From Candidatus Nitrosoglobus terrae (GTDB taxonomy: Bacteria; Pseudomonadota; Gammaproteobacteria; Nitrosococcales; Nitrosococcaceae), in assembly GCF_002356115.1 (NCBI RefSeq), contig NZ_AP014836.1, positions 868,001-932,000 of the forward strand: DNA of 64,000 bases. Reading direction: 5' to 3'. This document shows positions 1 through 35,620 of the stretch, in pieces (position 1 is the first letter of the stretch; each line of letters starts with the position of its first letter). Position numbers and translations under genes: made by a program. Below the pieces are notes generated by a model that was not told the origin of the DNA, did not search any database, and saw only the letters and a program-made list of their open reading frames with translations.

Positions 1-1131
1 GGCTCTGATCAGCATCGAGGCTGGTTTCAATCCTCGTTATTGACAGCAGTGGCGATGCGGGGTACTGCGCCTTACCGAGCCGTACTTACTCACGGATTTA
101 CCGTAGATGCTGAAGGTAAAAAGATGTCCAAATCTAAAGGCAATGTAGTCGCCCCACAGCAAGTTGTTGGCAGTTTAGGGGCGGATATACTTCGGCTATG
201 GGTTGCGGCTACCGATTATCGGGCTGAGGTGAGTGTTTCTGATGAGATTTTGAGACGCATTGCGGATTCTTATCGGCGGATACGCAATACGGCCCGTTAT
301 CTCTTAGCAAACTTAGATGGTTTTAATCCGGCCACTGATAAAGTACCCGCTGAAAAGATGCTTACTTTAGATTGCTGGGTCATGGATCGGGCTTTCCTAC
401 TTCAGGAAGAGGTTCTTAAAGCCTATGAGGATTATAATTTCCATCTGATCTATCAGCGGATACATAATTTTTGTGCGGTAGATATGGGGGCGATTTATCT
501 TGATATTATCAAAGATCGTCAATATACGGCTAAAACCGAAAGCCGTGCCCGACGATCAGCCCAAACAGCTATGTATCATATCGCTGAGGCACTGGTGCGC
601 TGGCTTGCGCCAGTGTTAAGTTTTACCGCAGATGAGATTTGGCATTATCTTCCAGGAGATCGATGTGAATCGGTGTTTTTAACGACTTGGTATCAGGATC
701 TCACCCCACTAGCCAATGAGGCTACTATGGGGCGAGTTTTTTGGAATACTGTTTTAGCAGCGCGAGAAGCTGTCATTAAGGAGCTGGAACAGATTCGAGT
801 GGCCGGTAAAATTGGTTCCTCTCTGGATGCGGAAGTAGATCTTTATGCGGATGAGTCTTGGTATCACCCCTTAAAACAGCTGGATGATGAGCTTTGTTTT
901 ATTTTAATGACCTCTTATGCGCGGTTGTATCCAGCATCACAGCGACCGGAACAGGCCTTGGAAACTGATCTATCTGGCCTGTGGGTAGCGGTGACCCCAT
1001 CGAGTTATTCTAAGTGCGTGCGTTGTTGGCATCATCGGCAGGAGGTAGGAGTTCACTTAGATCATCCTGAGTTGTGTAGCCGCTGTGTAGAAAATATTGA
1101 TGGTTCAGGAGAGCAGCGAAATTTTGCTTAA
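1..1131 (+). CDS. ileS: Isoleucyl-tRNA synthetase, C-terminal part (5' end outside window)
   Basis: Class I aminoacyl-tRNA synthetase that charges tRNA-Ile in the cytoplasm. The reading frame is open from base 1 (GSDQHRGWF...), so the gene begins before the window and 376 residues of its C-terminal part are seen. The KMSKS signature of the ATP site is at codons 41-45 of the visible part. The anticodon-binding helical domain follows. A C-terminal zinc finger (Cys-x2-Cys ... Cys-x2-Cys) starts near codon 339. Stop is TAA. lspA follows after 143 bases, the ileS-lspA order usual in gammaproteobacteria. The family assignment is firm; only the start is missing. Confidence 0.97.
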   Translation, partial: GSDQHRGWFQSSLLTAVAMRGTAPYRAVLTHGFTVDAEGKKMSKSKGNVVAPQQVVGSLGADILRLWVAATDYRAEVSVSDEILRRIADSYRRIRNTARYLLANLDGFNPATDKVPAEKMLTLDCWVMDRAFLLQEEVLKAYEDYNFHLIYQRIHNFCAVDMGAIYLDIIKDRQYTAKTESRARRSAQTAMYHIAEALVRWLAPVLSFTADEIWHYLPGDRCESVFLTTWYQDLTPLANEATMGRVFWNTVLAAREAVIKELEQIRVAGKIGSSLDAEVDLYADESWYHPLKQLDDELCFILMTSYARLYPASQRPEQALETDLSGLWVAVTPSSYSKCVRCWHHRQEVGVHLDHPELCSRCVENIDGSGEQRNFA

Positions 1132-33503: not shown

Positions 33504-34358
33504 TTACATAGTGAGTTTGATTTCAAACAAGCTCGGCCAATATTTTCCAGTCACAAATAACCGATCTTGCTGTTCATCATAAGCAATACCATTGAGCACA
33601 TCGGCAGCACGATTATAGCTCCCTTGGTTTAATAACCCAGCAAGGTTTATCCAGCCTAATATCTGCCCAGTTTCGGGTGAAATCCTAGCGATGTAATGGG
33701 TGAGCCAGACATTGGCATAGATTTCACCCTTCACATATTCTAGCTCATTCAGCTGAGTCACCAGAGTAGTACCGTCATGGATCGGTAACCGCTTGATCAA
33801 TTGGAAGCTTTTTGGGTCTAAGAAATAAAGAGTAGAGCTACCATCGCTCATAATAAGGTGCTGGCTATCATGGGTAATGCCCCAGCCTTCTGTGGGATAA
33901 AAGAATTCATGAAGCGGGCTAAAGGTGGTTTGATCATATACAAACCCTACTTTTTCCTGCCAAGTTAATTGGATCAATTTATCCTGCCAGAGGGTGAGTC
34001 CTTCGCCAAAATAGCGGCTGGGTAATGTATATTGCTGCAATACTATCCCAGTCTCTAGCGCTACCTTTCTTACAGTGGATTGGCCATATTGGCCGGTACT
34101 TTCATAGAGAAAACCTGCGTTAAAAATTAATCCTTGGGTAAAAGCCCTAGGGTCGTGGGGGTAGTGATGGATAATTTGATAGCCATAGATAGGTGCGCTG
34201 GAATTTACTGATATGGTTGCATGATATAAGCGAGGCAAAAAATCCTTCTGTACTAAAGCACCTAGCCCTTTAGCTTCTCCATATCCAAATACTAAAATAA
34301 TGCCTAAAATTATAGTGGGTAAAAGCAAAAAAATAGATTGTTTAACAATGGGAGTCAT
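33504..34358 (-). CDS. Glutamine cyclotransferase (plant-type glutaminyl-peptide cyclotransferase)
   Basis: 284 residues: an N-terminal membrane segment or signal (10-27), then a five-bladed-propeller domain typical of plant-type QC: HDPRAFTQGLIF, YESTGQYGQSTVR, EGLTLWQDKLIQLTW, EGWGITHD and LNELEYVKGEIYANVW. The enzyme makes N-terminal pyroglutamate, most likely outside the cytoplasm. The start is ATG. The czcD-like gene is immediately downstream (the frames abut), an unexplained pairing. Confidence 0.92.
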   Translation of the reverse strand: MTPIVKQSIFLLLPTIILGIILVFGYGEAKGLGALVQKDFLPRLYHATISVNSSAPIYGYQIIHHYPHDPRAFTQGLIFNAGFLYESTGQYGQSTVRKVALETGIVLQQYTLPSRYFGEGLTLWQDKLIQLTWQEKVGFVYDQTTFSPLHEFFYPTEGWGITHDSQHLIMSDGSSTLYFLDPKSFQLIKRLPIHDGTTLVTQLNELEYVKGEIYANVWLTHYIARISPETGQILGWINLAGLLNQGSYNRAADVLNGIAYDEQQDRLFVTGKYWPSLFEIKLTM

Positions 34359-34819
34359 ATGAAATTTTACTACTGTTATAACTATAACGTCTAAAAGGGC
34401 TTATTTACCTATGCAGCCTATTATAGTTATCGACTAACCTAATTGAATATATGATTTTAAACCCCTCCCTGAGTTAAAAATGATTAATCAGGAGGCTATT
34501 TGTTTGGCTAAAGTCAAGAGTTTATTTTAAATACTCACAAACTTATCCCGTGGGTGATGAATTGGATTTAATCCCTAGACGATAGGGTATTTATTTTTGC
34601 TATAGTTTATAACTATTTGATTTTATTTAATTTATTATAACTGTATATTTTATCACCAAATTGTTATGAAGCTTGTTGCTGCATGGCTTACAACCATTAA
34701 ATTTTGTGTTATCCACAGAGTTATCCACAATTTTTGTGGATAACTCCCTTAACCCTAGTATCCTCGCGCTGTATCCAGCTAAAGGTATTAAAATAAGCCT
34801 AGCGTTACGCTTTAAAAAC
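34359..34819. other. AT-rich intergenic region with DnaA boxes
   Basis: 461 bases, mostly AT-rich. It holds the promoter of the minus-strand QC gene, three perfect DnaA boxes (34709-34743), repeats of a TATAACTA-type motif, and a long imperfect hairpin at 34464-34495 (CCTCC-TGA-TTAA pairing TTAA-TCA-GGAGG). No short gene is seen. Confidence 0.7.
34709..34743. promoter_or_regulatory. Cluster of three perfect DnaA boxes
   Basis: TTATCCACA occurs at 34709-34717 and 34721-34729 on the plus strand, and as TGTGGATAA at 34735-34743 on the other. All match the DnaA-box consensus exactly within 35 bases. An AT-rich stretch (about 34590-34665) lies next to them. An origin, a DnaA-titration site or a DnaA-controlled promoter are all possible. 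Confidence 0.75.
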
Positions 34820-35620
34820 TTAGTGGGTAATGTTTAACCAAGAGATCCACTCATGAAACAGGGCTTTTTCTAGCGCTGCGGCCACTGATCGAGGCTGAAG
34901 GGTAGGCTGGAATACCCGCTCTCCCGCTAAAGTGAGGGCATGGCCTCCCGCCTCACTCAGTATTAAACTACCGGCGGCATAATCCCAGAGTTTTTGCCGG
35001 CCATGAAGATAAACATGGCCACGACCAGCGGCTATCCAACACCAATCTAAGGCCACGGATCCTAAACTGCGTTGAGAACTGTAAGGGGGATTTGTGGCTA
35101 AGCGGGCAGCTAGATCAGAAGGCAAGCGTTTAAGATCCACCAGTCCAATACCGCTTTGCAATGAAGAAATAGGGCGGTGCTGTCCTAGGGGTTTTCCATT
35201 AAGCTGTACCCCTTGGCCTTTTTGGGCGCTAAAACATTCGTTGCGTAGCGGATCATACACGATTCCTAATACTACTTGCTGCTTTAAAATCAAGGCCAAG
35301 GAAACGCTGAAACAAGGTATCCCAGCAGCAAAGTTACGGGTGCCATCTAGGGGATCTAGACACCAGACTCCTTGATCCGTATTTTCTAATAGCCGGTGTT
35401 GGGCTTCTTGTTCCATCTCCTCACTGAGAAACGCAAACTGAGGCCAATGGGTGGTAAGGGCTTGCTCGATCTGATTTTGCATCGCTAAATCCGCCTCGGT
35501 AAGTAGGCTGCCGTCTGCTTTCCATTGGCTTTTAACGGTAGCAAACCGAGGTAAGAGTTGCTCTTGAGCAATGCCCACAATCATCTGGCTGAGTTGTTCT
35601 AAATTAGGATACATAAGCAT
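34820..35620 (-). CDS. Inositol monophosphatase family protein
   Basis: 266 residues of the Li+-sensitive phosphatase family (SuhB, HisN, CysQ). Metal-site motifs: Glu in FLSEEMEQE, CLDPLDGTRNF near 87-97, and WDYAAGSLILSEAGG towards the end. The start is ATG CTT ATG, preceded by GGAG nine bases upstream, which decides for the first ATG. Substrate is not settled: inositol phosphate, histidinol phosphate or 3',5'-bisphosphate nucleotide are all possible. No partner gene nearby settles it. Confidence 0.88.
   Translation of the reverse strand: MLMYPNLEQLSQMIVGIAQEQLLPRFATVKSQWKADGSLLTEADLAMQNQIEQALTTHWPQFAFLSEEMEQEAQHRLLENTDQGVWCLDPLDGTRNFAAGIPCFSVSLALILKQQVVLGIVYDPLRNECFSAQKGQGVQLNGKPLGQHRPISSLQSGIGLVDLKRLPSDLAARLATNPPYSSQRSLGSVALDWCWIAAGRGHVYLHGRQKLWDYAAGSLILSEAGGHALTLAGERVFQPTLQPRSVAAALEKALFHEWISWLNITH

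Follow-up and report, generated by a model that had tools for sequence, protein, structure and literature searches.

A triplet of perfect DnaA boxes in the genome of an ammonia-oxidizing gammaproteobacterium is very probably a DnaA-reactivating sequence (DARS) of the IHF- and Fis-dependent kind. Judged from sequence features, the element is best read as DARS2-like with a Fis site between the core and the IHF site, and we call it a variant because this core-Fis-IHF order differs from that of Escherichia coli. The assignment draws on a core geometry identical to that of E. coli DARS1, on the rigid conservation of this geometry across the class, and on a fixed Fis/IHF flank. The original prediction had offered four interpretations, namely the chromosomal origin, a datA-like site, a DARS-like site, or an operator for the adjacent glutaminyl cyclase (QC) gene; the DARS candidate has gained support, whereas the origin and the operator did not hold.

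The three-box core and its predicted Fis and IHF flank

The window, that is, the whole 64-kb stretch of DNA analysed here, corresponds to C1:868001-932000 of a 2,011,873-bp contig, with the triplet at 0.903 Mb. The triplet is intergenic, located in a 461-bp gap upstream of the QC gene (33504..34358, minus strand; Glu_cyclase_2, Pfam PF05096, E=1.5e-99). An inositol monophosphatase-family gene (34820..35620, minus strand; Pfam PF00459, E=8.2e-51), for which no NCBIfam cut-off was reached, flanks it on the other side; both genes lie outside the element, and a scan for related loci with the inositol monophosphatase (IMPase) protein yielded 47 loci, which were set aside. Three exact copies of TTATCCACA constitute the core: box I (34735..34743, minus strand), box II (34721..34729, plus strand), which runs opposite to box I across a 5-nt gap, and box III (34709..34717, plus strand), which follows the direction of box II after a 3-nt gap. 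Read on the minus strand, the arrangement is I(+)-5 nt-II(-)-3 nt-III(-), and the role of each box was assigned by aligning this geometry to E. coli DARS1. Together with adjoining bases, boxes I and II form a perfect 13-bp inverted repeat with a 3-nt loop (34718..34746), as read from the sequence.

These three are the only exact TTATCCACA matches in the window, against 0.47 expected from shuffles, and a simple estimate, in which positions are assumed independent, gives about 2e-8 expected occurrences of 3 exact boxes within ~40 bp per such window. The whole genome holds 26 exact boxes (8 for a reversed-pattern control), and the genome-wide box scan identified the triplet at 34709-34743 as the only one. 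We scored the geometry box(+)-5 nt-box(-)-3 nt-box(-) on the fetched E. coli DARS1, DARS2 and datA regions as well: the window element has 0 mismatches (minus strand), DARS1 has 3, and the best matches in the DARS2 and datA regions have 5 and 8, respectively. The window thereby displays boxes I-III in the fixed orientation and spacing of a DARS, at an intergenic site away from oriC. The earlier observations of two direct boxes and one inverted box, of an arrangement very unlikely to arise by chance, of a very AT-rich adjoining stretch, and of a dnaA gene outside the window were all borne out; the same chromosome carries dnaA at C1:427.

The AT-rich stretch (34600..34660, from composition; GC 0.12 at 34600-34649) contains a predicted Fis site and a predicted IHF site, and makes more sense as a Fis/IHF flank than as a site of unwinding. 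The predicted Fis site (34643..34657, minus strand; GGTGATAAAATATAC) is exact to GNNNAWWWWWTNNNC, though not to the stricter published consensus GnnYAnnnnnTRnnC, and lies at a distance of 86 nt from the box I start; the predicted IHF site (34610..34622, minus strand; AATCAAATAGTTA) is exact to WATCARNNNNTTR and lies 121 nt from the same point. Flanks were surveyed at 70 class loci carrying 31 family labels, sampled from the matches listed and oriented by box I. Of the 70 loci, 39 had the IHF consensus (at most 1 mismatch) on one strand at +117..122, 14 of them exact, compared to a mean of 0.54 and a maximum of 3 in 106 control bins, and a mean of 1.16 and a maximum of 5 in local shuffles. An exact Fis consensus was found at +83..88 in 20/70 loci (control bins: mean 0.14, maximum 3; local shuffles: mean 0.19, maximum 2), and the class peak at +85/86 persisted under the stricter consensus, with 22 matches. 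Among 17 loci having an exact Fis match and also an IHF match, the Fis-IHF distance was 34-35 bp in 12, and in 3 of these 12 both sites were one helical turn nearer the core. Counted by family label, an IHF site occurred in 22/31 and a Fis site (at most 1 mismatch) in 26/31. This pair of sites is also present in the Nitrosococcus-like copies, each site having 0-2 mismatches. A test set of 40 loci, also from the matches listed, included 14 second copies from first-set genomes and is therefore not fully independent; in the other 26 loci, an IHF site was present in 15 and an exact Fis site in 7. Two points here count against a DARS: an IHF match at +117..122 is missing from 31 of the 70 loci, and the Fis and IHF sites are predicted, as consensus matches only.

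Conservation and a sister genome that lacks DnaA

With gaps left free between 1 and 15 nt, 5 of the 63 genomes examined from the order have an exact triplet, namely the ammonia oxidizer's own and all 4 Nitrosococcus-like genomes, which belong to one genus and which we take to be Nitrosococcus species. All 7 exact matches in these 63 genomes have gaps of 3 and 5, and two genomes harbor two copies ~1.5 kb apart. A partial triplet with two exact boxes and a degraded third one was also observed on the smaller contig, possibly a plasmid, of one Nitrosococcus-like genome (L087, G059:C1:24612-24646). At the class level, the geometry with at most 3 mismatches was present in 261 of 370 genomes, while the reversed control pattern gave 0 among the matches listed and the gap-swapped pattern 0/370. 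The 109 class genomes with no match, most of which have DnaA, count against the DARS reading, as does one genome (G351) that has the pattern and no DnaA-domain match. In a phylum draw, the pattern was found in 76/199 genomes, distributed by row count as 41/71 in the own group and class and 35/128 outside the class, where all matches fell in five family labels (f183, f187, f191, f193 and f197). Genomes of f183, G460 among them, carry up to nine matches each, compared to the usual one to three in the class.

The only other genome of the same family in the comparison (G058) belongs to the sister 'Ca. Nitrosacidococcus', an ammonia oxidizer from an enrichment culture, and consists of one contig of 1,848,551 bp; the published circular genome of 'Ca. 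Nitrosacidococcus urinae' I8 is likewise of 1,848,551 bp (PMC9574496). In G058, the triplet pattern is absent even at 3 mismatches, and profile searches found neither DnaA nor Hda (no PF00308 and no PF08299 match) and no short Fis frame, all HTH_8 matches falling in longer frames (448, 329 and 472 aa); five IHF/HU-family matches remain. The first base of its contig lies 267 nt ahead of dnaN, in the place where dnaA would be expected, and the last lies at the start codon of rpmH. Its GC skew is weak and irregular in the stretches sampled. Within sampled stretches of this genome, the window gene at 36212 matches positions 1100123-1100461, and no QC or IMPase match was found. The absence of dnaA in Ca. 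N. tergens and Chromatium okenii has already been published (PMC13116554); in the literature found, including the available portion of that report, there was no mention of a joint absence of Hda, Fis and DARS alongside the loss of dnaA.

That a sister genome without DnaA is also without the triplet argues for a DARS, and the loss of dnaA, hda, fis and DARS in that genome ties the site to DnaA without recourse to a laboratory mutant; the acid-tolerant sister genus thereby constitutes a natural experiment within the family. Across the class, 6/370 genomes have no PF00308 match, three of them being fragmented assemblies, and the DARS pattern is absent in 5 of these 6 compared to 104 of the 364 others (Fisher p 0.0095, kinship ignored), G351 being the one that still has it; this co-absence lends weak support to the tie. 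Further support for a DARS comes from the proteins encoded by the ammonia oxidizer, for which profile searches found a DnaA domain (PF00308, C1:427-909) in a 447-aa frame, a second PF00308 match in a 237-aa frame (probably Hda), proteins of the IHF/HU family, and a Fis-like frame of 109 aa.

Alternative readings and position on the chromosome

The reading that survives best after a DARS, although we consider it improbable, is a datA-like site at which the boxes would titrate DnaA or promote ATP hydrolysis. Three exact boxes, probably of high affinity, and a predicted IHF site are compatible with it, as datA uses IHF too (PMC5742627), and datA resembles the window element in combining DnaA boxes and IHF outside oriC. 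Titration, however, requires no rigid 5/3 spacing throughout a class, which leaves the geometry unexplained; that geometry is not shared by E. coli datA, whose region offers no match better than 8 mismatches. In addition, the datA IHF site lies between DnaA boxes (PMC5742627), whereas that of the window lies outside the core. The box arrangement of datA was not recognized here, the DARS geometry alone having been scored on the datA region, and the window has no spread of boxes comparable to datA.

An operator or promoter element by which DnaA would regulate the QC gene or its neighbour fits the location of the triplet in the gap upstream of QC, but is very improbable and was rejected because the element is retained next to changing genes. 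The 4 relatives in which it is kept have it beside other genes (patatin-like, PhyH-like, hypA-like, alcohol dehydrogenase-like and gpmA-like, named by eye), and no window protein matches the 20-kb surroundings of the element in these genomes (E<=1e-15).

The adjacency of DnaA boxes and an AT-rich stretch would also suit the chromosomal origin, a reading that we find scarcely credible and that was discarded given the position of dnaA and the GC skew. The dnaA gene lies at ~0 of the 2.01-Mb chromosome, with exact and near-exact DnaA boxes between dnaA and dnaN (1439-1552). In 20 sampled stretches, the skew was positive between 0 and 1.065 Mb and negative between 1.1 and 1.985 Mb, switching at the contig start and near 1.05-1.1 Mb; single 2-kb blocks of the first 20 kb differ in sign. 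All eight 8-kb blocks of the window have positive skew, and neither a skew switch nor nearby replication genes were found at the triplet, so that the GC-skew check proposed beforehand went against an origin at this point. Because of the position of dnaA and the skew switch there, the contig start is the most likely place for oriC. Adjoining the switch near the presumed terminus, a 15-kb-coordinate interval (L069, G000:C1:1050001-1065000) has 27% GC compared to ~42% for the chromosome, and looks like foreign DNA. Measured from dnaA, the triplet itself lies at about 0.90 of the distance to the opposite point of the chromosome, and this place far down the arm counts against a DARS; E. coli DARS2 moved near terC had a weaker effect (PMC5742627).

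Lastly, a terminator or small-RNA hairpin formed by the inverted repeat, perfect as it is over 13 bp, has a negligible probability, since no T-run follows the repeat on either strand, Rfam shows nothing near the gathering score (a single chance microRNA match below the cut-off was dismissed), and box III, outside the repeat, is equally fixed in position.

Proposed function and comparison with the E. coli sites

The original DARS paper is said to be that of Fujimitsu et al., from 2009. In the E. coli scheme, boxes I-III are where ADP-DnaA assembles, boxes I and II being arranged head to head; the release of ADP is activated by IHF and Fis bound at set distances, the apo-DnaA then binds ATP, and shifting the IHF sites by 5 or 10 bp causes a partial loss of activity (PMC4245941, PMC5742627, PMC8682772). 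By analogy, ADP-DnaA would bind the three boxes of the window element, with two DnaA molecules held head to head on boxes I and II; Fis and IHF, ~50 and ~85 bp beyond box III, would introduce a bend into the DNA and distort the complex of DnaA, leading ADP to leave, and the apo-DnaA could then take up ATP and become available again for oriC, ~0.9 Mb away.

The characterization of DARS comes from E. coli, with conservation described for closely related species (PMC4245941, PMC5742627, PMC8682772), and no earlier report of one in the family of this ammonia oxidizer was found in a literature search with little coverage of subscription journals. The rigid form present in an ammonia oxidizer and in 261/370 class genomes makes DnaA recycling testable as a general trait. 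We give an even chance to a broader proposal, by which DARS would be an ancient part of the DnaA cycle rather than an enterobacterial refinement, occurring in most Gammaproteobacteria and in a few other proteobacterial families; the order core-Fis-IHF would be the commonest form there, its Fis-IHF pair lying at a fixed distance and the E. coli copy being rearranged, and the module of DnaA, Hda, Fis and DARS would be lost as a unit where DnaA is abandoned, as in Nitrosacidococcus.

Among the known sites, E. coli DARS1 (bioD-uvrB) has the core closest to that of the window by sequence (3 mismatches), with an identical geometry; unlike the window element, it has no IHF match near the core and no Fis consensus (at most 1 mismatch) at +35..+199. 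E. coli DARS2 (rppH-mutH intergenic region, NC_000913.3) was located not by an annotated coordinate but through the published 3-bp separation of IBS1 and IBS2 (PMC4245941): the 5-mismatch site at L088:636 was taken as its core because its IHF consensus matches, at +93 (-) and +109 (+), are 3 bp apart, and another candidate, at L088:952, was dropped as this gap fits L088:636. The latter candidate (L088:952-986; E. coli MG1655, ~2969451-2969485) is a further DARS-like triplet, also degenerate, within the intergenic region of DARS2. It has 7 mismatches, a perfect box II and, at the +119 offset that is common in other Gammaproteobacteria, an exact IHF consensus, and might be the relic of a tandem copy, similar to those of the two-copy Nitrosococcus-like genomes.

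The window element and DARS2 are both intergenic and outside oriC, and their three-box cores share orientation and spacing, with degenerate boxes in DARS2 (5 mismatches) and perfect ones in the window. No DnaA box V (at most 1 mismatch) was found at +35..+418 of the window element, a box that is kept only in some species (PMC8682772). In both elements the IHF consensus lies on the box III side at a fixed distance, at +109 in DARS2 and, as an exact match, at +121 in the window element, approximately one helical turn further. Beyond the window IHF site, Fis matches (+143, +144, +209 and +235) have 1 mismatch each. The order of the sites differs, which counts against the DARS reading: the essential Fis sites of DARS2 lie beyond IHF, together with DnaA box V (PMC4245941, PMC8682772), whereas the exact Fis consensus of the window element, at +86, lies between the core and IHF.
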